A DNA stretch of 48,955 nt from Prochlorococcus sp. AG-402-N10 (GTDB lineage Bacteria; Cyanobacteriota; Cyanobacteriia; PCC-6307; Cyanobiaceae): positions 1-48,955 of the forward strand of contig QCIU01000011.1 of assembly GCA_003216465.1 (NCBI GenBank). The letters are read 5' to 3'. A program made the position numbers and the translations under genes. Position 1 is the stretch's first letter. Every line of letters begins with the position of its first letter. Under the pieces are notes generated by a model that worked only from the letters and a program-made list of their open reading frames with translations, was not told the origin of the DNA and ran no database searches. Shown in pieces: positions 7,505-47,560 of this stretch.

Positions 7505-8476
7505 ATGAGTATTTTCAAAAAAACTCTCATTTTATCTTCTGCAATTTCATTAATACTTTCTCCATCTGCGATGGCTTCAAAAAGATTGAGTGGAGCTGGT
7601 GCATCATTTCCTTCGAAAATTTATACCAGGTGGTTTTTTGACTTAGCTAAATCTGGAGGCCCTAGAGTTAATTATCAAGCAGTAGGTTCTGGATCTGGAA
7701 GAAAAGCTTTCATAGACGAAACTGTGAATTTTGGTGCATCAGATGATCCTATGAAAGATTCTGATATAGAGAAAGTTAAAAGAGGACTTGTTCAAATACC
7801 TATGGTTGGTGGAACTATTGCTTTCGGATATAACTATGATTGTGATTTGAAACTTACTCAAGAGCAAGCAGTACAAGTTGCTATGGGAATGATTAAAGAT
7901 TGGAAAGAATTAGGTTGTAAATCAGGGAAATTGACTTGGACTCATCGTTCTGATGGATCAGGTACAACTAAAGCTTTCACAAACTCTATGGAAGCGTTTT
8001 CAAAAACCTGGACAATAGGCACAGGTAAGTCTGTAAAATGGCCGGCAGGTGTTGGTGCTAAAGGTAATTCTGGTGTTGCAGGTGTTATTCAAAACACCCC
8101 TGGCGCAATTGGTTATGTAAACCAGTCATACATTAAAAGTAATGTTAAGGCTGCTGCAATTCAAAATCTTTCTGGTGAATTTGTTACTCCAAATACTGAA
8201 TCAGGTGCAATAGCTTTAAATGGAATAAATCTTGATGAAAACTTGGCTGGTAAAAATCCGAATCCTACTGCTAAAGGAGCTTATCCAATAGCAACCTTGA
8301 CTTGGATACTTGCTTATGAAACAGGTAATGGAAGAAATACTAAGGCAATTCAAGATACATTCTATAAATTGCTCAGCGATGAATACCAATCAAAAGCTCC
8401 CACCTTAGGTTTCGTTCCCTTGAAAGGAGAAATTTTAAAAAAGTCAATTGAGGCTGTTGGAAGAATAGGAAGGTAA
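7505..8476 (+). CDS. pstS: Phosphate ABC transporter, substrate-binding protein PstS
   Basis: 323 residues with a signal peptide ending at AMA-S (residue 24). PstS family features: LSGAGASFPSKIYTRWF at the start, VGSGSGRKAFID (phosphate loop), FGASDDPM with the Asp that selects protonated phosphate, and HRSDGSGTTKAFT. Binds phosphate in the periplasm for PstCAB; no pstCAB genes are in the window, so it must rely on those elsewhere. Placed in a four-gene arsenic element and preceded by ArsR-type operators, it probably supplies selective phosphate over arsenate uptake. Its last 33 bases overlap the end of the convergent arsJ gene. Confidence 0.93.
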   Translation: MSIFKKTLILSSAISLILSPSAMASKRLSGAGASFPSKIYTRWFFDLAKSGGPRVNYQAVGSGSGRKAFIDETVNFGASDDPMKDSDIEKVKRGLVQIPMVGGTIAFGYNYDCDLKLTQEQAVQVAMGMIKDWKELGCKSGKLTWTHRSDGSGTTKAFTNSMEAFSKTWTIGTGKSVKWPAGVGAKGNSGVAGVIQNTPGAIGYVNQSYIKSNVKAAAIQNLSGEFVTPNTESGAIALNGINLDENLAGKNPNPTAKGAYPIATLTWILAYETGNGRNTKAIQDTFYKLLSDEYQSKAPTLGFVPLKGEILKKSIEAVGRIGR

Positions 8477-9700
8477 TTTAGAACTAGTAAGCCAAGCAAT
8501 AAAAATCAAAATAGATGAAGTATATAAACAATACTGCATACCTATAGTGGCATTTTTACCGAGCATAAATAATAAGCCAGATAGTAAGGTTCCAAATAAT
8601 CTTCCCGCTGCATTCGCCATATAGTAATAACCAACATTTAAACTTACTTTCTCATTATCTGAATAAGCCAAAATCAAGTACGAATGAGTAGATGAATTCA
8701 TCGCAAAAATAAAGCCGAATATTATTAATCCAATAACGATAACAAGACCTAATGATTTATCTCCGTTTAATGCTCCAGCAATAAATAAAGGAATAACCGT
8801 CAAGATAAGTCCCCAAAATTGAACGGTAGTTTTTGTTGGGCTATTATTTTTTCCCCATACTTTTCTAAGTAATGGAGCTAATACTTGAAAGAAACCATAG
8901 ATTATTATCCATCCACCCAAGAACAGTCCTATTTTTAAATAATCCCATCCAAAAGAAATGTCTAAAAATACCGGAAGAGCTACTACAAACCAGACATCTC
9001 TTGCTCCAAACAAGAAAAACCTCGCGCTTGAGAGAATATTAATACCTTGAGACTTTGAATAAAGGTCTTTAAAAATTGGCTTTCTTTTCATTTTTCCTGA
9101 ATCTTTAGGAAGACATAAAGTTAAAAAGAATGCGAAGCATAGACCTAAACCCATTATTCCAACTGCATTATTAAAGCCCAATAGCTTGTATAAGAGACCC
9201 CCTAGGAAGAAGCCAACACCCTTAAGTGCATTTTTAGATCCTGTTAAAATTGAAACCCACTTAAATAATTGTTTTTGACTATTTTGATTATTCTCTTCTG
9301 AATCTGGAACTATTGATTTAACTGCACTTTTTGCACTCATTTTATTTAAATCTTTTGCTACCCCACTAAGCGCTTGGGCTAACATAACGTATGAGACGCT
9401 AAAGATTACTGACCAATTCTCTTTGACTGGAATCAGCATGAAAAGAGCAAGAATTTGCAGAATTGTTCCTATCCATAAAGTAAGTCTTAAACCATATCTT
9501 GCCCCTATCCAGCCTCCAAAAAGATTTGTAATTATTCCAAAAAATTCATAGAAAAGAAAAAGTAAAGCAATTTGCAGAGTTGAATAACCAAGTTCATGAA
9601 AATGACCAACAACTAGTATCCTCAATGCACCGTCAGTAAGAGTAAATGCCCAATAGTTTGCGGTAACGACACTATATTGTTGAAGGCTAGATAACTTCAT
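8444..9700 (-). CDS. arsJ: Organoarsenical efflux permease ArsJ (MFS)
   Basis: 418 residues, about 12 hydrophobic segments. The N terminus YSVVTANYWAFTLTDGALRILVVGHFH and FYEFFGIITNLFGGWIGAR are characteristic of ArsJ as I know it. ArsJ exports 1-arseno-3-phosphoglycerate, made by the partner GAPDH from arsenate and glyceraldehyde 3-phosphate; the product then breaks down outside to arsenate, giving net efflux. The gene follows the GAPDH gene by 5 bases in the same operon. The 3' end overlaps pstS by 33 bases (convergent), which may cause mutual interference. Confidence 0.88.
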   Translation of the reverse strand: MKLSSLQQYSVVTANYWAFTLTDGALRILVVGHFHELGYSTLQIALLFLFYEFFGIITNLFGGWIGARYGLRLTLWIGTILQILALFMLIPVKENWSVIFSVSYVMLAQALSGVAKDLNKMSAKSAVKSIVPDSEENNQNSQKQLFKWVSILTGSKNALKGVGFFLGGLLYKLLGFNNAVGIMGLGLCFAFFLTLCLPKDSGKMKRKPIFKDLYSKSQGINILSSARFFLFGARDVWFVVALPVFLDISFGWDYLKIGLFLGGWIIIYGFFQVLAPLLRKVWGKNNSPTKTTVQFWGLILTVIPLFIAGALNGDKSLGLVIVIGLIIFGFIFAMNSSTHSYLILAYSDNEKVSLNVGYYYMANAAGRLFGTLLSGLLFMLGKNATIGMQYCLYTSSILIFIAWLTSSKLPSYSSNSLN

Positions 9701-9705
9701 AAAAA

Positions 9706-10734
9706 CTAAAATTTATTTTCTTTCTCAATTACATAAGAAGTAAGATCTGCAAGCCTGCAACTATAACCCCACTCATTGTCATACCAAGCATAAATCTTTA
9801 ATAAATTTGAATTTACAACCATCGTTGAAAGTCCATCAATTATTGAACTTCTACAGTCATTTAAGTAATCAGCGGATACTAAGGGTTTCTCCTCGTATCC
9901 AAGAATACCTTTTAAGAATGTTTCAGATGCTTTTTTAAATTCATTATTTACTTGCTCTTCAGTTACTTCTTTATTTAATTCAAAAACTACATCGGTTAAT
10001 GAGGCGTTTAAAAGTGGAACCCTTACTGCATGACCATTTAGTTTTCCTTCTAATTCAGGGAAAATTTCAGCAATCGCCTTAGCTGATCCAGTTGTAGTAG
10101 GTATTAAGCTTTGCATGCATCCTCTCGCTCTTCTCAAGTCACTTTTGTAAAAATCTACTGGAGATTGTGTATTTGTAAGGTCATGAATAGTTGTTATAAC
10201 CCCATGTTTAATTGAGAAATTTTCATTAACAACTTTTACGATGGGAGCCAAGCAATTTGTAGTACATGATGCTGCTGTAATTAATTTATGTTTTTCAGGT
10301 TTATAAAGGGCTTGATTAATTCCATAAACAATATTAAGTGCTTGTTCCCCTCCAACAATTCCTTTTACAGGACAGGCAACTATTACTTTTTTTATTCCAA
10401 GAGAATCAAAGTATGGATTTAATTCTTTGGGAGCTTTATTTTTTCCTGTACATTCCAAAACAAGATCAACCGAAGATTTATTCCATGGAACGTCAAGATA
10501 GTTCTTTGTTGATGTAAAAGAAATTTTTTTGCCTTCAATTATTATTTCGTTGTCATTCGAAGTTATATTTTTATTCCATCTACCATGAACAGAATCAAAC
10601 TCTAATAGATGAGATGCAGTTAAAGAATCCCCACTTATTTCATTTATATGAGTTATTTCTATATCTTTTCTTTCCCATAAAATTCTTAAAACTAACCTAC
10701 CAATTCTTCCAAATCCGTTAATTCCAATTTTCAT
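9706..10734 (-). CDS. gap1: ArsJ-associated glyceraldehyde-3-phosphate dehydrogenase
   Basis: 342 residues. Rossmann motif [15 protein letters not shown] at the start, catalytic cysteine in [15 protein letters not shown], and the C-terminal WYDNEWGYS. First gene of the two-gene operon with arsJ, divergent from arsR. In arsenic operons this enzyme uses arsenate in place of phosphate to make 1-arseno-3-phosphoglycerate for ArsJ to export. Prochlorococcus often carries an extra gap1 in phosphate- and arsenate-related islands. It is not the main Calvin-cycle enzyme, judging by context; sequence alone cannot rule out a normal GAPDH activity. Confidence 0.9.
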
Positions 10735-33308: not shown

Positions 33309-33353
33309 TCGGGGCGACAGGATTCGAACCTGCGACCTAGTGCTCCCAAAGCA
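33309..33353 (-). repeat. Displaced tRNA-Pro 3' half (att site, E11/E12)
   Basis: Exact copy up to AAAGCA, then AACC instead of CACC. The last displaced copy before the intact tRNA, so E12 is the newest insertion on this side. Confidence 0.92.
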
Positions 33354-33458
33354 ACCGTGCAGATTTAGTGATATCAAGAGTTTTCAGTCATAACAATAGA
33401 TATAGCCTAATTTGCTAATTCCACTAAGTGTCGAATTGTTCAGATAAGGTTGACTTTT

Positions 33459-33476: not shown

Positions 33477-33504
33477 ATATAGATAACAAGTGTACGGGTG
33501 CTCT

Positions 33505-34701
33505 ATGCCAGTTAAGACAAAAACAGAATCATGGGTTCAACATTTTAGAGATCAACTAAAGACTTTTATGGCTCCTAAAGCTTCTTGGTATGTTCAAGAA
33601 AGTAGAGGAAAAATTAGATTATTAGTTAAAGAAGATGGAAGAACTCAAACCTTAACTCTTGAGAATGATTGGTCAGTTAAAGGATCAACTGAAGCAATAA
33701 AAAGAATATCTCTTATATATAAAAACTTTTATTCAGATTTAGGAAATAGATCATTAGAAAAGTCATCAATCGTTGTTGATAAATCATCTTCTAATAGCGA
33801 AATAGATTTTAAAGAATTATTTGAACAATTTAGAGCCTTTTGCCCATCTGCTTCCGATACAACATGGAGTAAATCCTACGAGCCAGTACTCCATACAGCC
33901 CAAGAACTATTAGAAAGATCGAAAGGTAAACCACAAAACGGAGAAGAATTAATGACATCTTCCCTAAAGAAATGGGAACAGGGTAGTAGGTCAAGACAAA
34001 TTGCTAGAAGAGCGTTACAAAAATTTCTAGATTGGGCAGTTTTTAGAGGAAAATTACCAACACAATATGCACCTGTAAAAATCAAAGAAACTTTGAAAAA
34101 GAAGCGTGTAGGTTATGCACTTACTGATAGTCAGATATTGCAATTGATAGCATCAGAAAAAGATCCTAAATGGCAATTTAATTATCAACTATTAGCTGTT
34201 TACGGACTAAGACCAGAAGAACTACGTTTTCTTGTTATTAAAGATGGGGTTAGAGGTAAAGAGTTATGGACTACTTATGAGAAATCTATGGGTGGAACTA
34301 AAGGTCAAAAGACTGAACCAAGAAAGTTAGCTCCCTTATTACTTAAAGATGGTAAAGGTTTTATTAATTGGAACTTACAAGAAAGATTAGAAAAAGGAGA
34401 ACAAACTGGATCTGTTGGGAAATTAGGAAAAGGTAGTGATGCTTTAAGAACAAAACTAATTAGAAATCCTATATGGAATAAATTTAAAAAAGAAGCTGAT
34501 AAACAAAAAGAAGTATTAGTGCCTTATGCCTTCCGCCATAGATATGCAAAAGTAGCTCATCAAAGATCAGTTGAAATGAATCTAACTATTAAAGATATTG
34601 CTTTTGTTATGGGTCATACAGTTGAAGTACACCAGCAAAACTATGCAAGATTTATGCCAGAAGATACCTTTGCTAAATTCGAGAAACAGTTAGCAGCGTA
34701 A
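33505..34701 (+). CDS. int: Tyrosine recombinase (integrase) of satellite E12, 398 aa
   Basis: ATG at 33505 (MPVKTKTESWVQHF) chosen to match the E9 homologue; a GTG five codons upstream is possible. Catalytic set as in E9: LAVYGLRPEELRFLV, box II PYAFRHRYAK (Tyr in place of the usual His), MGHTVEVHQQNYARF with the nucleophile. Roughly two thirds of residues match the E9 protein over the catalytic half, less in the N-terminal half, in line with the two elements having different arm-site words. Followed by a regulatory cassette and two secreted-protein genes. Confidence 0.9.
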   Translation: MPVKTKTESWVQHFRDQLKTFMAPKASWYVQESRGKIRLLVKEDGRTQTLTLENDWSVKGSTEAIKRISLIYKNFYSDLGNRSLEKSSIVVDKSSSNSEIDFKELFEQFRAFCPSASDTTWSKSYEPVLHTAQELLERSKGKPQNGEELMTSSLKKWEQGSRSRQIARRALQKFLDWAVFRGKLPTQYAPVKIKETLKKKRVGYALTDSQILQLIASEKDPKWQFNYQLLAVYGLRPEELRFLVIKDGVRGKELWTTYEKSMGGTKGQKTEPRKLAPLLLKDGKGFINWNLQERLEKGEQTGSVGKLGKGSDALRTKLIRNPIWNKFKKEADKQKEVLVPYAFRHRYAKVAHQRSVEMNLTIKDIAFVMGHTVEVHQQNYARFMPEDTFAKFEKQLAA

Positions 34702-41081: not shown

Positions 41082-41155
41082 TCGGGGCGACAGGATTCGA
41101 ACCTGCGACCTAGTGCTCCCAAAGCACCCGCGCTACCAAGCTGCGCCACGCCCCG
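41082..41155 (-). tRNA. tRNA-Pro(UGG), intact; insertion site of the island
   Basis: On the minus strand the 7-base acceptor CGGGGCG pairs with CGCCCCG, D arm GCGC/GCGC, anticodon arm with loop TTTGGGA (anticodon TGG), T arm GCAGGTTCGAATCCTGT. Discriminator A, CCA not encoded. All fourteen or so partial copies in the window derive from this gene, split at the anticodon arm. The only complete copy, so the only functional one here. Confidence 0.96.
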
Positions 41156-41245
41156 CTCATAAGATCTTAGTTCATAACAGACATCTATTAAAGACCAAAT
41201 TTATAAATATTTTATAAAAGATTACTTTTCTGGCTAGAAAATTAG

Positions 41246-41267
41246 TTTTGTCGCTATTTTGTCGCTA
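41246..41267 (+). repeat. Arm-type tandem word, left end of E13 (TTTTGTCGCT)
   Basis: TTTTGTCGCTATTTTGTCGCTA, with a third TTTTGTCGCT at 41280. It starts 119 bases after the anticodon-arm core of the intact tRNA; the same distance separates core and arm in E14. Partner at 45743. Confidence 0.72.
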
Positions 41268-41313
41268 GAGATATATGTGTTTTGTCGCTAAAAAAATATA
41301 ATTACTTCGGCCA

Positions 41314-41667
41314 TTAGTCACTTAATAAATTTTTCAGTGCTTCAATTTTTTCTGCATTAATTTTGTTACCATCTTTCATCCAAGTAAGAAATTGATAAAT
41401 TTCTTGATCACTTAACTTAAACCATTCTTTGCCCCCTCTCTCTGGAGAATGTTTTAATTTAAATTTTTCATGAAATTGTGACTCCCAATTCAATGCCTCT
41501 TTTCGTGAAAAAAACCACGTAATAGATAAACCTCTTACTTTTCCAACATTATATTTTTGTTCGACTTCTTTTTTTCTTTCTTTTGGATTATTAGTTATTC
41601 CTATTTTTGTATCACCACTTAATGTATCTTGCATTAGATATAGGGCGCACATTTCGTTGTTACGCAT
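41314..41667 (-). CDS. GIY-YIG-like protein (T5orf172/MUG113 type), 117 aa
   Basis: ALYLMQDTLSGDTKIGITNN and PKERKKEVEQKY give the start of a GIY-YIG-type fold (here LYL and KIGIT in place of GIY and YIG) with a likely Arg/Lys helix and Glu in WESQFHEKF. The C-terminal part (GGKEWFKLSDQEIYQFLTWM) is typical of the T5orf172/MUG113 group of small phage and bacterial proteins. Nuclease activity is probable, not shown. Divergent from the helicase gene, with 90 bases between, perhaps one system. Confidence 0.72.
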   Translation of the reverse strand: MRNNEMCALYLMQDTLSGDTKIGITNNPKERKKEVEQKYNVGKVRGLSITWFFSRKEALNWESQFHEKFKLKHSPERGGKEWFKLSDQEIYQFLTWMKDGNKINAEKIEALKNLLSD

Positions 41668-41757
41668 AGTTTTTATGAATTTTTGAACTAATATGCAATT
41701 AAATTTATCTCAAATTCTTTTATTTTTCTCGAATTATTAAATTCTATTATTTGAAAC

Positions 41758-44700
41758 ATGAACCTAAAAGATAGTGAAAATAAATTTTCGAATTTCTCAA
41801 ATCAAAATGAAGATAATTTAAAAGAAAAATTCTTAATTCTCAAAATCTCTTTTGACAAATTAGGCTTTGAAGAATCTATTATTAAAATTCTCCAAAACAA
41901 CGGTTTCGATTTCTTAAGCGATTTAATAGGTTTTGATAAAGAGGACTTTCTTCAATTTTCTGGTTTCGACTTAGAGAAATTTGATACTTTAACTTCTCGT
42001 TTTAATAAAAATAATTTAAAAATTCCACTTACCTTTGATCAAGCATCAAATATCCATGGGAGGGAAAAATTTAAATCAATCACCAAAGATTCTCATATTA
42101 GTTTTCAAGAGATTAAAAATAAGTTCTTAACGAAAGAAATTGATATTGATAATTTTGAAAATGCTTTTAAACATATATATATAAAAGGCTATGATCCAGA
42201 ATTCGTACTTATATTCAATATTCTAAAAATTATTGAAAGTGCAGACTCTGGATTTAATAAAGAAAATAAAGATTTTACTTTTGAAAAGCGATTTATAAAA
42301 TTCTACTTTTTAAAAAATGTATTTGATGAACAGTCAACTATTAATATTCAATCTTTAGAAAAAATATTTAATACATTCTCTTCTTCCCCTAATTCAGTTG
42401 ATAGGCTTTACTTTCTATTTTGCAAGCTTTCTGGCATGACACTTCAATCTATAGGAGATCAAAAAGGTTGTTCACGTGAAAATATAAGGAGCCGAATTAA
42501 AACAATTTCAATAATGTTTGGCTTAGAGGGAATTGATCTCGAGGAATTATTTAGAAAATTTAAGGAAAATTCAAAATATAATTCAACAAAAATAATGATT
42601 GATCAATTACTTGATGAATTCAATAGGCTTCCGAATAAAAATGACGCTTCAGAAAAATTTAATGCAGATGATCCAATATACAAAAGTATTATTGAACTTA
42701 ATTTAAAAGATAGATTAGTTTGCTACGAAGAATTTAAAAAAGAAATCCCCAATTCTGAATATGATTTTCACTTTGAATCGATTATTAATAAAGTCGAAAT
42801 TGATAAAGGATTTGGATATTGGTTGAATTTTGAGAATTTAGAACAATTTCTGAAAAGATTTGCATCTTATTTAGGAGAACCAGATTATATGCCTATGCAA
42901 AAAGATAGTCCTGATTGGATAAGAGGAATTATCCAGAGGCATGGAGGTCAAAGTGTTGTTGCTAAGAAGACAGGTTTAAAATACCAGGGTCAACTTGTAA
43001 GTGAATCAGGTAAGAGAAGGTTTTGGACATACGAACAAATGTCAGATCTGATCGATAAAGTCAATATTTTCTACTCTCAAGTAAATAATAAAATGCCAAG
43101 CTTTAGTCAAATTAAAGACTTTTTGAAAAATACCGATAATGAATTATATAAAAATAAAAAATCAGGCTCCCTTTTATCTGCCATGACAAGCATGGGCAAT
43201 TTAACTTGGACTGAAACTGCCGAAAAATTTAATAGAAGAATAATTCTGGATAAATCCGTGAGGGTAAATACAAATTTTGTAAAAGCATTTGTTAGAGATC
43301 TTGGGGAACATTTAGCTGTATTAACTCCCTCGGAATTATATGTTTTGTTTCAGGCACAAGGTATTTCAAAGGATAAAAGTAGGCATAGTAGAACCTTCGA
43401 TATTCTTATTGAGGCAGTTCAAAGTGGTGAAGTCGATAAAAAAGACTTGGTAGATTGGTCTAATAACATAGAAGTCCCATCAATTGTAAATCTACTCAAT
43501 TTAGGAAGTGAATTATCTTCAAGGAATACAAATAAAGAAGAAAGAGAATTAGTTTTATTAAATAGAAGATCCAGAAGAATTGAAGCAAATAAAATAAAAC
43601 CAAAGATTATTGATCTCAACAAAGTTACTTCAGAGGATCTTCCTGCTCTAGATCCCATAAAATCTCTAAGTGCTCTTGATAAAGCTGCAAGCATAATTAC
43701 AGAATCAAATAGCGATTTAGAACTTATAGAATTTTTAAAAGCGAAAGCAACAGCTAAGTTATGGGATAGTTGTTTCTCTGATGAGAATCTTTTGATAAAA
43801 AACCTTAAATCTAGTTTTTTTGAAAAGGATGAATATAGTTCAAGAGTTAAAGAAGCATTCCTTGAGGAATATAATGGAGCTAATAATTTAGAGATACCGC
43901 AAACTTATAAGTTTAGAGATTTAAAAGGTATTGAAAGGCAACCTAAATTGATGCAGAAACTTGTTGCTTTTAGACTACTCAGGGATAAACGCCTCTTGAA
44001 TTTGAGTGGTACTGGTACGGGTAAAACATTATCAGCAATACTCTCAGCACAAATTTGCTCTAGCCAGAGAATATTTATTTCATGTCCTAATGGAGTAGTT
44101 GATAGTTGGGAAAGGTCTTTTCAATCTGCTTATCCATCAGCGGTAATTCATATAAAACCTGAGAATTGGGAGATTAATCTTATTGAAAATAAAACTAATG
44201 TGGTTGTGGTTAATCATGAAAGATTTCAAAATCGTTTTAGTGAAAATTTACTAAGGTTTTGCGTTGAGTTTCAACCAGATTTAATTGTTATAGATGAAAT
44301 ACATCAATCAAAAAGTCGTGAAGAAAAAATTTCAAGTCAAAGAAGATCTTTACTTGGAGAATTAATAAGGATTTCGTCAAATATTAATCAAGAACTTAGA
44401 GTTCTTGGATTGTCTGCGACACCAGTAATAAATAATTTATATGAAGGGGCATCATTAATTGAGTTGATTACACAGAAAAAATTTGAAGGAATTAAAGAAA
44501 ATAATATTAATTCATGTATGCATCTCTACCAAAATTTTATACTTCATGGAATTCGAATGAATCCCGGAAGTCTATCTAGAACTAAATTGATCCCAATTCA
44601 GATAGATTCTTCAGCTCTTCTTCCTGAAGTAATTGAAATAACTAATTCGAGAAGACATACTAGCTATCATGAAATTGAGAAAATTTTAGTTAAACCAAAA

Positions 44701-45273
44701 CTGCAAATATTAAAGAGAATACTATCAGAAAATTCAAAAACTATTATTTTTATTACTTACATAAAGGGTACATTAATACCAATAACTGATTTCCTTTCTC
44801 ATGAAAGAATTAGTTACTCTGTATATACAGGAGAAGATAAAGAAGCGACAGATTCAGGATTTAAAGATTCTTTGGATGAATTTATAAATGGAAACACAAA
44901 AGTTTTAGTGGCTTCTATACAGTGTGCTGGTACTGGAATAGATGGCTTACAGTCCGTTTGTAGTAACGCAATTTTCTTTCAATTGCCTTGGACATCTACA
45001 GAGTTTGAACAGTCTATAGGTCGACTAGACAGAGATGGTACGGAGTTTGATTCAATTAATGTTTTTATGCCAATAACAAATATTAAATTGCCTAATGGGG
45101 AGAATTGGAGTTGGTGCCAATCAAAATTGGAGAGGATTGAATCAAAAAAAGATATTGCAAAGGCCGCTGTAGATGGAGATCTTCCTGACAGTGGGGCAAT
45201 ACTCTCTCCCCAAGATGCAACTAAATTATGGTTAAAGTGGCTTAAAAGGCTGGAAAATAGCCCTAATGATTAA
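41758..45273 (+). CDS. SF2 helicase with transcription-like N-terminal segments, 1171 aa
   Basis: C-terminal helicase (about 740-1130): Walker A GTGTGKT, DEAH-type box IDEIHQS, motif III GLSATPV, and the second RecA domain with IIFITY, VLVASIQCAGTGIDGLQ and QSIGRLDRDG. N-terminus (about 25-90) looks like an RNA polymerase alpha-CTD-like HhH (LGFEESIIKILQNNGFDFLS, DLIGFDKEDFL). About 215-250: sigma-region-4-like HTH (SGMTLQSIGDQKGCSRENIR). A region around 385-420 (WIRGIIQRHGGQSVVAKKTG) is of a type seen in plant and cyanobacterial proteins. It could remodel transcription complexes or act as defence on phage DNA; neither is shown. Neighbour of a GIY-YIG-like gene and an LprI-like gene in E13. 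Confidence 0.75.
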   Translation: MNLKDSENKFSNFSNQNEDNLKEKFLILKISFDKLGFEESIIKILQNNGFDFLSDLIGFDKEDFLQFSGFDLEKFDTLTSRFNKNNLKIPLTFDQASNIHGREKFKSITKDSHISFQEIKNKFLTKEIDIDNFENAFKHIYIKGYDPEFVLIFNILKIIESADSGFNKENKDFTFEKRFIKFYFLKNVFDEQSTINIQSLEKIFNTFSSSPNSVDRLYFLFCKLSGMTLQSIGDQKGCSRENIRSRIKTISIMFGLEGIDLEELFRKFKENSKYNSTKIMIDQLLDEFNRLPNKNDASEKFNADDPIYKSIIELNLKDRLVCYEEFKKEIPNSEYDFHFESIINKVEIDKGFGYWLNFENLEQFLKRFASYLGEPDYMPMQKDSPDWIRGIIQRHGGQSVVAKKTGLKYQGQLVSESGKRRFWTYEQMSDLIDKVNIFYSQVNNKMPSFSQIKDFLKNTDNELYKNKKSGSLLSAMTSMGNLTWTETAEKFNRRIILDKSVRVNTNFVKAFVRDLGEHLAVLTPSELYVLFQAQGISKDKSRHSRTFDILIEAVQSGEVDKKDLVDWSNNIEVPSIVNLLNLGSELSSRNTNKEERELVLLNRRSRRIEANKIKPKIIDLNKVTSEDLPALDPIKSLSALDKAASIITESNSDLELIEFLKAKATAKLWDSCFSDENLLIKNLKSSFFEKDEYSSRVKEAFLEEYNGANNLEIPQTYKFRDLKGIERQPKLMQKLVAFRLLRDKRLLNLSGTGTGKTLSAILSAQICSSQRIFISCPNGVVDSWERSFQSAYPSAVIHIKPENWEINLIENKTNVVVVNHERFQNRFSENLLRFCVEFQPDLIVIDEIHQSKSREEKISSQRRSLLGELIRISSNINQELRVLGLSATPVINNLYEGASLIELITQKKFEGIKENNINSCMHLYQNFILHGIRMNPGSLSRTKLIPIQIDSSALLPEVIEITNSRRHTSYHEIEKILVKPKLQILKRILSENSKTIIFITYIKGTLIPITDFLSHERISYSVYTGEDKEATDSGFKDSLDEFINGNTKVLVASIQCAGTGIDGLQSVCSNAIFFQLPWTSTEFEQSIGRLDRDGTEFDSINVFMPITNIKLPNGENWSWCQSKLERIESKKDIAKAAVDGDLPDSGAILSPQDATKLWLKWLKRLENSPND

Positions 45274-45283
45274 TTCTTTATTA

Positions 45284-45667
45284 TTAACCACAGCTTGGAT
45301 CTCCAGTGATGCAATATTTTTGGATTTCTTTGTTAACTCTTAACCCACATCCAGGTCTAGTTATTTGTTTAACTGTTCCTCCACCATACATTTTTTCTTG
45401 AAAGTGATTACAAATTTTACTTCTTACCTCTACCCAGTTAGAGAATAAATCTGGGTTATTTAATTCTTTTCTTAATTTTCTATCACTTTTTATAAGATCT
45501 ATCCAAATGCACGCTGCTATTTCTGGTGTTGAACCCTCTGGATTGCATTTGAAAGGATAGTCAGTAAAAGCCTCTTTTATTTCATCTTCTAATGAAAGCT
45601 CATTAGAAAAAACTGGCGTTTTTAATTGTGATATTAATAATGTGCCAAGAATAAGTATGTAATTCAC
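45284..45667 (-). CDS. LprI-like exported protein, 127 aa
   Basis: Signal peptide (NYILILGTLLISQLKTPVFS), then an LprI/DUF1311-like pattern: FKCNPEGSTPEIAACIWIDL, SDRKLRKELNN, VRSKICNHF, GGGTVKQITRPGCG and a final CITGDPSCG, with six cysteines in disulfide-compatible positions. LprI-type proteins inhibit lysozymes in some bacteria; the role here is not known. Convergent with the helicase gene (10 bases between stops). Confidence 0.6.
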   Translation of the reverse strand: MNYILILGTLLISQLKTPVFSNELSLEDEIKEAFTDYPFKCNPEGSTPEIAACIWIDLIKSDRKLRKELNNPDLFSNWVEVRSKICNHFQEKMYGGGTVKQITRPGCGLRVNKEIQKYCITGDPSCG

Positions 45668-45721
45668 TTGAATTTATATTCTACTAAAGATTATAAATCG
45701 AAAAAAAGTAATAGACTTTAG

Positions 45722-45738
45722 AAAGCACCCGCGCTACT
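45722..45738 (-). repeat. Fragment of tRNA-Pro 5' half
   Basis: AAAGCACCCGCGCTAC, 16 bases identical to the anticodon-to-D-arm part of the intact tRNA, ending at CTAC then diverging. Directly followed by the E13 right arm word. With the copy at 45826, it shows that two junctions lie close together here. Confidence 0.65.
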
Positions 45739-45742
45739 AAAG

Positions 45743-45762
45743 TTTTGTCGCTTTCCCTCGCT
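45743..45762 (+). repeat. Arm-type word, right end of E13 (TTTTGTCGCT)
   Basis: TTTTGTCGCTTTCCCTCGCT: one full copy and one changed copy (CCCTCGCT), 64 bases before the tRNA 5'-half copy at 45826. Confidence 0.6.
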
Positions 45763-45825
45763 TTTTAGTCTGTAACAAAAGTAAGAAAGTCAGTTATTGC
45801 AACTAGTCTCGTTAGTAAAAAGGTA

Positions 45826-45867
45826 TGCTCCCAAAGCACCCGCGCTACCAAGCTGCGCCACGCCCCG
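45826..45867 (-). repeat. Displaced tRNA-Pro 5' half with its upstream flank (E13/E14)
   Basis: TGCTCCCAAAGCACCCGCGC then TACCAAGCTGCGCCACGCCC CG: anticodon arm, D arm and acceptor 5' strand, exact. Homology to the intact gene's upstream flank continues for about 35 bases more (CTCATAAGATCTTAGTTCAT, AACAG, CATCTAT), so the promoter side was carried too. The tRNA 3' half is absent. Confidence 0.92.
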
Positions 45868-45957
45868 CTCATAAGATCTTAGTTCATAACAGTCATCTAT
45901 AAAAGAGTAAATAGTAAAAATTTTTGTAATAAAAATTTTTTAGGCATAAATATGCTT

Positions 45958-45979
45958 TCTCTCACTAATCTCTCACTAA
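45958..45979 (+). repeat. Arm-type tandem word, left end of E14 (TCTCACTAA)
   Basis: TCTCTCACTAATCTCTCACT AAT, two direct copies, 119 bases after the tRNA core at 45839, as in E13. Between here and the apt gene a hairpin AGGGTG/CACCCT lies at about 46009-46030. Confidence 0.72.
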
Positions 45980-46198
45980 TTTTTTAAACTTATTTTTACG
46001 TAAATAAAGAGGGTGCCTTTAAATCACCCTTGCCATTAATGGTAGTTAAATATGACTTCTAAAAATATCTATCCTTTATTTGTTATTCGATTGAGGTGTA
46101 ATTTAAATTTTTTTAGGTATATTTAGAAAAAAAATTTCATTTAGCTAGAATTAAGAAAATGTGAGACAGATGTTTAAAACTAATATCAGAAAAAAGGA

Positions 46199-46711
46199 AT
46201 GACAAATCTTAAAGAATTTATTGATACTTACAAAGATTATCCAAAGAAAGGAATTGAGTTCAAAGATGTTCTTGGAATTATTCAGGAACCAAGAATATTC
46301 AAAGAACTTATTTTAAAGATGTCTTCCAGTCAAATTATAAAAAATGCGGAAGCAATAATTTCCATAGATGCTAGAGGCTTTATTTTTGGTTCTGCGATCT
46401 CTTTGGAAGCTTCAAAGCCAATGATTGTCGCAAGAAAACCTGGGAAGCTCCCAGGAGAACTTGTAGAAAAGAACTACAGCTTAGAATATGGTGAAAATAG
46501 ACTTTCTATTCAAAAAAAGGCCCTACAGAAATATAGATCTTATGCCATTGTTGATGATTTATTAGCTACTGGCGGAACGGTTAATTGTGTTTCGAAGATT
46601 CTTGAGAGTAACAATAAAGAAGTCGTAGGAGTTCTAGTTGTTGTTGAATTAATTAAATTAGAAGGGAAATTAAAACTGAATTGTCCTATTGAATCATCTA
46701 TAACTTTTTGA
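46199..46711 (+). CDS. apt: Adenine phosphoribosyltransferase
   Basis: 170 residues, the usual length. MTNLKEFIDTYKDYPKKGIE with FKDV, then SIDARGFIFGSAIS, ARKPGKLPGELVEKNYSLEY and the PRPP loop YAIVDDLLATGGT. Makes AMP from adenine and PRPP (purine salvage). The only gene in element E14, with arm words on both sides, so it has been mobile. Prochlorococcus has small purine-salvage sets; whether another apt exists elsewhere cannot be seen. Confidence 0.93.
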   Translation: MTNLKEFIDTYKDYPKKGIEFKDVLGIIQEPRIFKELILKMSSSQIIKNAEAIISIDARGFIFGSAISLEASKPMIVARKPGKLPGELVEKNYSLEYGENRLSIQKKALQKYRSYAIVDDLLATGGTVNCVSKILESNNKEVVGVLVVVELIKLEGKLKLNCPIESSITF

Positions 46712-46788
46712 AAATAAAATTACATTTAAATATCAAAATTATAAAAAATTAAATTGGATTCTTCTAAACATCCGCTCTATTGAATTTT

Positions 46789-46809
46789 CCCTCACTAACT
46801 CTCACTAAA
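46789..46809 (+). repeat. Arm-type tandem word, right end of E14 (CTCACTAA)
   Basis: CCCTCACTAACTCTCACTAA AT, same word as at 45958. 66 bases before the tRNA fragment at 46875. Nothing else is seen between 46712 and 46875. Confidence 0.7.
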
Positions 46810-46874
46810 TGGATTGTAATATTTAATCTTAATATTGTTATTGCAATACATTTGGTTTGTATATTCGGTTTCTC

Positions 46875-46900
46875 TGCGCTACCAAGCTGCGCCACGACCC
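46875..46900 (-). repeat. Displaced tRNA-Pro 5' half, decayed (right end of E14)
   Basis: TGCGCTACCAAGCTGCGCCA CGACCC: D arm and acceptor 5' strand with decay in the acceptor (ACGACCC for ACGCCCC); anticodon arm lost. The following TAATTCATAA is a faded form of the tRNA upstream flank. Outermost mark of the island on this side; from here to 47395 I see only a 31-residue frame (47042-47137, beginning MKPIEPAVYP) that looks like a gene fragment. Confidence 0.8.
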
Positions 46901-47395
46901 ATTGTTAAAGTTATTAATTCATAATATATGACTATAAACATTAAGTTATAAAATTCTTATAGATTTGTGCAGGGTCTTAAACTTTACTTTTAAAAACTTA
47001 AGTAATATGTATGAAGTTAGATTAAGAAATTCAATAATTAGATGAAGCCCATTGAACCTGCCGTGTATCCAATTATTAAAAAGAATGAAAATTCTGCGAG
47101 ATCTCTAGGCAGAGAATTAATGATTAATTTTATTTGAGTCATTTGACCTTGTGCTCCTCAGGTTTTTATAAATTTTTCAAAAATATAACTAAATAATTTT
47201 TATCTTGAGGCGAAATTTGTATTTATTTTCTTTTTTCTAAAGAATTTAAGTTTTTTTATTTATTTTTCGTTTCAGAAAAACATAAAATTTCAAAATATTC
47301 ATATATTTATCAAGCTAAATCTTACATATATAAAAATATATAAACTAAAGAATTTTTTTTGGCTATAGTTGATTTAACGTAATTAATCTTTTTTG

Positions 47396-47560
47396 ATGGA
47401 TTATAAAAAAAAATCTCTAAAAAAACTCAATCTCACCAAAACTTACGAAGAAATTGATTCGAGGTTAGCAACTGGATGGTATGTAGAATCTGAAGGGAAA
47501 AACAAAAATAAAAAATATAAGACAAAACAAGTTTCTTTCAAAATTTCAAAAAAGATTTGA
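47396..47560 (+). CDS. Small basic protein, 54 aa
   Basis: MDYKKKSLKKLNLTKTYEEI, then DSRLATGWYVESEGKN and a lysine-rich tail. No membrane segment. Outside the island by position. The tail (KNKNKKYKTKQVSF) is low-complexity. Function unknown. Followed by a clear terminator. Confidence 0.5.
   Translation: MDYKKKSLKKLNLTKTYEEIDSRLATGWYVESEGKNKNKKYKTKQVSFKISKKI

Follow-up and report, generated by a model that had tools for sequence, protein, structure and literature searches.

As reportedly defined by Hackl et al. in 2023, tycheposons combine a deep-branching tyrosine recombinase and hallmark genes with a position beside one of seven tRNAs. They are described as tRNA-bordered elements of Prochlorococcus with a tyrosine recombinase, cargo genes and satellite-like members (PMC10872708, PMC11389934), and other picocyanobacterial integrases, stated to be distinct from those of tycheposons, lie upstream of tRNA-Phe or tRNA-Cys in variable islands (PMC10187409). 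The pTN3-like archaeal integrases use a tRNA gene's 5′ half as their chromosomal attachment site (attB), and the integrase promoter is said to drive expression of the tRNA once rebuilt (PMC8371274); an element of Zhao & Williams (2002) is cited by title for recombination in the 5′ region (PMC6563490). Among the islands in tRNA genes (tDNA) catalogued in Islander, 159 of 3919 leave a 5′ fragment (PMC4383910). Here, we analysed the tRNA-Pro gene of Prochlorococcus sp. AG-402-N10 and the elements on both of its sides within one contig (QCIU01000011.1; the window, which is the whole of contig G000:C11, 48955 bases). The original prediction for this DNA had called the takeover of the tRNA 5′ half by elements on the right-hand side unusual; by the Islander count such a takeover is rare but not unprecedented.

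The intact tRNA-Pro(TGG) gene (41082-41155, minus strand) is the sole full-length match in the genome. Twelve displaced 3′ halves, mostly tRNA positions 29-74, lie on the minus strand on its 3′ side and span 1168-33360, in line with the claim that the left-hand elements brought the 3′ half; the nearest of them (33309-33360, minus) adjoins a recombinase gene (33490-34701). On the 5′ side, a displaced 5′ half with tRNA positions 1-42 is found at 45826-45867 (minus; 100% identity, E = 1.8e-12 with 26 stretches searched jointly) within a 155-base match of 81% identity, of which about 110 bases are flank. Farther out, a worn relic of an older tRNA 5′ part (46876-46900, minus; positions 2-26, 96% identity, E = 2.6e-4) has a worn promoter flank reaching about 46961. 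The displaced 5′ pieces with upstream flank are therefore real, one of them perfect and one worn. A third short tRNA match (45722-45740, positions 17-35) was excluded as an insertion because it belongs to the arm of an element, and other elements have it in their arms as well. We refer to the two right-hand elements as inner (about 41117-45835) and outer (about 45835-46870). Both had been predicted to be cut at the anticodon arm, which fits the inner element, whose displaced half ends at position 42; the outer relic already ends at position 26, so that its crossover point is not preserved. The intact gene itself is probably a composite, with its 3′ half from the last left-hand element and its 5′ half from the inner one.

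The order small gene, apt, tRNA-Pro is common to most relatives with a long enough stretch, with a varying gap between apt and the tRNA. One of these relatives, G016, is without the inner element and matches the window at 89.8% across 1006 bp comprising apt, a flank with TTAGTGAGAG repeats, the promoter and tRNA positions 1-42. At this point the tRNA of G016 runs straight into positions 43-74, where the window enters the inner element, so that the whole gene of the inner-less strain has the displaced 5′ half with flank as its positional counterpart in the window. Comparing strains with and without the inner element thus yielded an empty site, in which the outer arm, an ordinary promoter and tRNA positions 1-42 are joined to positions 43-74. 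Upstream sequence was retrieved for 24 relatives, several of these stretches being short at contig ends. In eight of the 24, besides the window, a 5′ half lies upstream (E < 0.001), in tRNA orientation each time, and G035 alone has a 3′ half on that side. G193 gave a second intact tRNA-Pro, which was dropped as a candidate since one copy ends 17 bases from a contig end.

The inner element is bounded by two arms that recur in autonomous elements. Its P arm (41156-41293, minus) consists of an ordinary-type promoter beside the tRNA followed by three TAGCGACAAAA repeats at 41244-41293, and its P′ arm (45718-45825, minus) contains AGCGAG/AGCGACAAAA repeats together with a half-core copy, GCGCGGGTGC, at 45722-45740. 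Compared with the autonomous element of G209, 46 of 50 P-arm bases and 93 of 108 P′-arm bases are identical. The displaced promoter flank at 45868-45984 (minus), which matches the current tRNA flank of G016, is at the same time the P arm of the outer element and contains TTAGTGAGAG repeats; the repeat is also present in the outer P′ arm (46790-46859, minus; AGTGAGAGTTAGTGAGG), which is identical at 63 of 70 bases to the P′ arm of the G204 element, to which the outer P arm has a weak match. A short repeat near both element ends is seen in the inner (TAGCGACAAAA), the outer (TTAGTGAGAG) and the last left-hand element (GTGTAAAAAACGTGTAAAA). Across 15 elements of the 5′-type, an element's own ends paired better than permuted ones, 75 of 20000 permutations scoring as high in a procedure that treats related elements as independent.

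Between these arms, the inner element carries three genes: a 117-aa GIY-YIG (T5orf172/MUG113) protein (41314-41667, minus; Pfam), a 1171-aa DEAD/SNF2-like helicase (41758-45273, plus; Pfam) and a 127-aa small protein without a Pfam match (45284-45667, minus), which is 76% identical in the equivalent element of G108. The helicase has partial PADLOC matches to the helicase parts of DrmD/BrxH/DpdE and possibly has a role in defence. No recombinase was found in 41156-46876, i.e., in the inner and outer elements together, by open reading frames (ORFs), tblastn, Pfam and recombinase searches, and no capsid or packaging gene, the mark of a phage satellite among small elements, was seen in either by the ORF list and Pfam. 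Both look like passenger cassettes.

Autonomous counterparts were found through their arms and their enzymes. Tandem TAGCGACAAAATAGCGACAAAA, allowing at most 2 mismatches, occurs at 12 sites in 11 of 151 genomes, with no match for the reversed control, and in all 12 a tRNA-Pro 5′ half (10 intact, 2 displaced) follows 111-125 bp after the start of the motif. One of these sites, in G075, is adjoined by the tyrosine recombinase P0004, whose clade has five members: those of G075, G209, G204 and G242 lie 196 bp upstream of the intact tRNA-Pro, and that of G254 is at a contig end. A displaced 5′ half is present 8.3-8.6 kb away in each of the former four genomes, with apt beyond it in three; no apt was found in the G209 stretch. 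The autonomous G209 element is 8.4 kb long, its far end being marked by the displaced 5′ half, and its cargo, assigned by profile, includes DUF3987 helicase-primase-like and endonuclease VII-like proteins and a second small integrase of the tyrosine type (L157:3875-4498, 207 aa; Phage_integrase, E = 2e-21), to which open frames in G075, G204 and G242 show resemblance, the content of these other elements being read from ORFs. A second, distant clade is represented by P0001 (445 aa), for which 16 of 16 full-length genes lie 213 bp upstream of the intact tRNA-Pro, a count that covers full-length genes and has a 54-aa remnant in G036 outside it. An integrase is present inside the elements of G209, G075, G204, G242, G034 and G255, the last of which also has capsid-protease, VapE-like and ligase genes. 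With Pfam Phage_integrase, P0004 falls below the cut-off and P0001 has no match.

Most other loci among the best 30 inspected in each of the two recombinase searches are of the opposite kind. A displaced 3′ half was found at 16 of the 17 other loci of the P0001 search (none at 1) and at 22 of the 25 other loci of the P0004 search, among L106-L135 (none at 3); one of these 22, L117, has a nearly whole, worn tRNA copy. Irrespective of the half involved, in 41 of 44 recombinase genes a half or an entire tRNA-Pro can be read no more than 420 bp from the start codon, and the gene runs away from it. Matches of the 5′-type end as early as position 40 (the farther copy of G075, and G204) and those of the 3′-type begin as late as position 31 (L178-L180), which leaves positions 31-40 for the crossover. 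To within these ten bases, the claim of one crossover site shared by both sides is upheld; the stretch comprises the anticodon loop of seven bases (33-39) between the halves of the stem inverted repeat and agrees with the usual core of tRNA-targeting tyrosine recombinases (PMC8371274). In the window, the loop corresponds to 41117-41123, where we infer the crossover of the inner element.

Viral contigs provide the free form of the site. In L173 (IMG/VR 3300030450_002913), an integrase is followed by GCGGCCTA repeats, by tRNA-Pro positions 1-45 and by GCGGCCTA repeats again, with phage genes on both sides: an un-integrated phage attachment site (attP) of the 5′-type. L176, with an integrase 81% identical to that of L173, has the same attP layout with one repeat in both arms. 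The same order is also kept in L177-L180, whose integrases are 63-69% identical to those of L173 and L176, but here the tRNA part is positions 31-74; L177 carries positions 21-74 at 93%, and the arms of L177-L180 share another repeat. Integrases of this degree of identity with opposite halves indicate that the half carried can apparently switch while gene order and anticodon-loop core stay, and suggest that the attachment site rather than the enzyme determines the side. In recombinase trees, a single clade of all 5′-types was rejected (approximately unbiased (AU) test, p = 1.2e-5), and joining P0001 with the phage 5′-types gave p = 0.009 for a clade named after inspection of the tree. The tree with phage rows, from which five near-identical P0001 rows were removed, requires three side changes. 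These trees are quick searches with long branches, in which the root, and hence the direction of change, is not fixed, two rows without a readable tRNA part are unlabelled, and L107 is called 5′-type by its clade and a half-core copy. No relative of P0001 or P0004 was found in IMG/VR, and none of P0001 in the phage collection. An exact 36-base tRNA stretch is present in three IMG/VR contigs: L173 with its attP, and L172 and L174, which hold the whole tRNA. A gene for an RNA polymerase sigma factor (L173:7510-8403) lies beside the attachment site of L173.

That the new 5′ half had come with its own promoter, as originally predicted, is borne out by the autonomous elements more than by the window. 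For eight autonomous-element genomes in which the displaced half was located (those of G193, G207, G219 and G060 are left out), the displaced 5′ half keeps an ordinary promoter, identical at 34-38 of 40 bases in seven of them to the reference, the displaced half of G034 as the eighth genome, while the promoter of the intact tRNA-Pro differs and shares 11-15 of 40 bases with the same reference. The displaced half of G083 is 27.7 kb away, with 3′ halves in between. In the window, however, 41 of the 45 bases beside the tRNA are identical between the current and the displaced flank (4 differ). The recombinase-less elements of the window and G108 have an ordinary promoter on both copies (38-39 of 40 bases), and that of G026 has a partly changed current promoter (21 of 40, against 35 of 40 for the displaced one). 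Since the inner promoter is itself of the ordinary type (39 of 40), the capture in the window seems to have changed the ownership of the promoter more than its sequence.

We consider it very probable that the anticodon arm is one attachment site for two kinds of elements with a shared tyrosine recombinase family, and that the right-hand cassettes are 5′-type elements moved by a helper. In the autonomous elements, the recombinase gene lies just upstream of the core and points away from the tRNA, implying the same integration polarity. The arm content would then determine which host half is displaced by a crossover in the anticodon loop: in a 3′-type element the arm beyond the core copies the tRNA 3′ half and would push out that of the host, and in a 5′-type element the recombinase-side arm copies the promoter and 5′ half and would push out those of the host, leaving the tRNA to be transcribed, presumably, from the captured promoter. 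The window cassettes would be moved in trans by a helper enzyme that reads the arm repeats, G209-like for the inner and G204-like for the outer element, with cut points that would lie in or near the loop. More broadly, and with good though lesser confidence, we propose a recombinase family of fixed polarity on one tRNA loop, in which the half carried flips repeatedly, the array grows both ways, the tRNA alternates between host and element promoters and cassettes without a helper share arm repeats.

Several observations weigh against this proposal. The window genome is 97.6% complete and has no P0004-like recombinase, both matches being the window's own 3′-type enzymes; the helper is therefore one that we infer, and a chromosomal tyrosine recombinase on C2 could be the acting enzyme instead. 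The outer relic is without a core, and the arm repeat gives the first or second rank in only 7 of the 15 permuted elements, worn ones showing none. Relatives of the 1171-aa helicase occur in 7 genomes besides its own (200 genomes searched); a displaced 5′ half adjoins the helicase in four of the eight (the window, G108, G026 and G030) and none does so in the other four. Among the P0001 genomes, a displaced 5′ half was found in only 3 of 14 (G034, G172, G255) within the fetched stretches of 2.7-19.9 kb, several of them ended by contig ends, and G195 has none between apt and tRNA. In G123, G060, G219, G083, G193 and G249 (L145, L148-L151, L153), displaced 3′ halves are located on the upstream side of both the P0001 gene and the intact tRNA, and in G035 (L055) on that of the intact tRNA-Pro, the reverse of the usual layout. 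One clean insertion does not explain these; they could stem from insertion into a displaced 3′ half or from rearrangement, and a whole tRNA might in principle be restored at a displaced 3′ half by a 5′-type element. A consensus promoter prediction was discarded, as its scores of 8-10 out of 12 were also reached by many shuffled sequences (≥ 8 in 63%, ≥ 9 in 19%), and we therefore claim an exchange of sequence only.

The upstream 3′ halves of several P0001 genomes and G035 imply that arrays may rearrange, and so bear on the idea that the right-hand segments are remnants of 3′-type insertions turned round by inversion or inter-array recombination. We regard this as very improbable, as the upstream 5′-half matches at E < 0.001 all keep the tRNA orientation, displaced halves carry an ordinary promoter and those of the window adjoin 5′-type arms. 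Scarcely more credible, and if anything less so, is a segmental or tandem duplication of the tRNA 5′ part and its flank with later gene insertions and no site-specific recombination. It would account for the shared flank and direct orientation of the 5′ copies, but the inner segment is bounded by both arms of an autonomous element, the break relative to G016 falls after tRNA position 42, the same anatomy recurs with different cargo in other genomes and phage contigs hold the un-integrated site. An origin of the right-hand copies by duplication, which the original prediction had named as its refutation, thus does not fit, most clearly for the inner element.

A closer competitor, though still an unlikely one, is that a deletion removed the recombinase from a formerly autonomous inner element, which would then be no passenger cassette. 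The close match of the inner arms to the G209 element speaks for such a loss; the same three-gene set in G108, likewise without a recombinase, speaks against it. So does a tblastn survey with the window's two recombinases as query, which found none in 14 other segments of at least 1.1 kb between apt or contig end and tRNA, G034 and G014 being set aside as both carry P0001.

With helper-moved cassettes as the preferred explanation, the locus can be set beside the known systems. It resembles the Islander tDNA islands in having an intact tDNA and a displaced 5′ fragment upstream in tRNA orientation, anticodon-centred crossover being one Islander class, and the inner element, at 4.7 kb, is within the Islander length range of 2-200 kb, with the outer one (about 1.0 kb) below it. 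Islander requires an internal integrase, however, which the right-hand elements are without, and differs in that here one gene is targeted from both sides, in arrays (PMC4383910). An attP with the tRNA 5′ half, as in pTN3-like elements, can be deduced for the window from G016 and is seen free in L173 and L176; pTN3-like integrases are an archaeal group, whereas in the Prochlorococcus case related enzymes use either half (PMC8371274). Tycheposons are similar in host, tRNA border and cargo (PMC10872708, PMC11389934), and the picocyanobacterial integrases of variable islands are likewise upstream of a specific tRNA, but of other tRNAs than tRNA-Pro (PMC10187409). We found neither two-sided use nor side switching described in the open-licence literature, where side switching cannot be named directly as a query. 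As far as this literature shows, the two-sided array, the helper-less 5′-type cassettes that share autonomous arms and the opposite halves among close integrases are new.

If this explanation is true, the rare 5′-fragment islands are explained by a change of attP and not of the enzyme, and small gene cassettes may move by matching their arm sequences to helper elements. A mobile element could then own the promoter of a single-copy, probably essential tRNA in a very common ocean phototroph. The integrases that are 63-69% identical with opposite halves form natural pairs for testing what fixes the side.

Between the outer junctions lies apt (46199-46711, plus), an adenine phosphoribosyltransferase-like gene (Pfam PF00156). 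Over the window region 46199-47396, the apt genes of relatives are of two types, with identities of about 80-92% and 63-71% to that of the window and with broken matches for G008 and G009. Among the strains compared, only the window has the relic between apt and the gene that usually adjoins it; G016 has remains of the arm, and other relatives sharing this apt type are without the relic. Given this position of the relic, the outer element may have replaced an older apt gene.

Copies of parts of the tRNA anticodon arm recur near recombinase genes. An 8-base copy from this region lies near the recombinase start in 17 of 44 genes, compared with 24 of 616 control windows. In the P0004 clade (L106-L110), an extra left half of the anticodon arm (GCGGGTGCTT and similar) stands beside the arm repeats just before the recombinase start codon, the window has such an extra left-half copy beside arm repeats at 45722-45740, and many 3′-type recombinase genes have the right half (AGCACTAGG) near their start. 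These copies may be autoregulatory sites. By eye, a tRNA-like piece in the arm of the G003 element (L053:1812-1855, minus) forms a hairpin with a T run, GCGGGTGC..GCACCCGC-TTTTTTTTT, which on its appearance resembles a terminator behind the displaced promoter.

Finally, pstS, an MFS (arsJ-like) gene and gap are found on the 3′ side of the tRNA-Pro in the window (7505-10734), and versions of these genes with 77-83% identity lie inside the 5′-type element of G034 (L038:7432-12022). Similar cargo has thus used both sides of tRNA-Pro.

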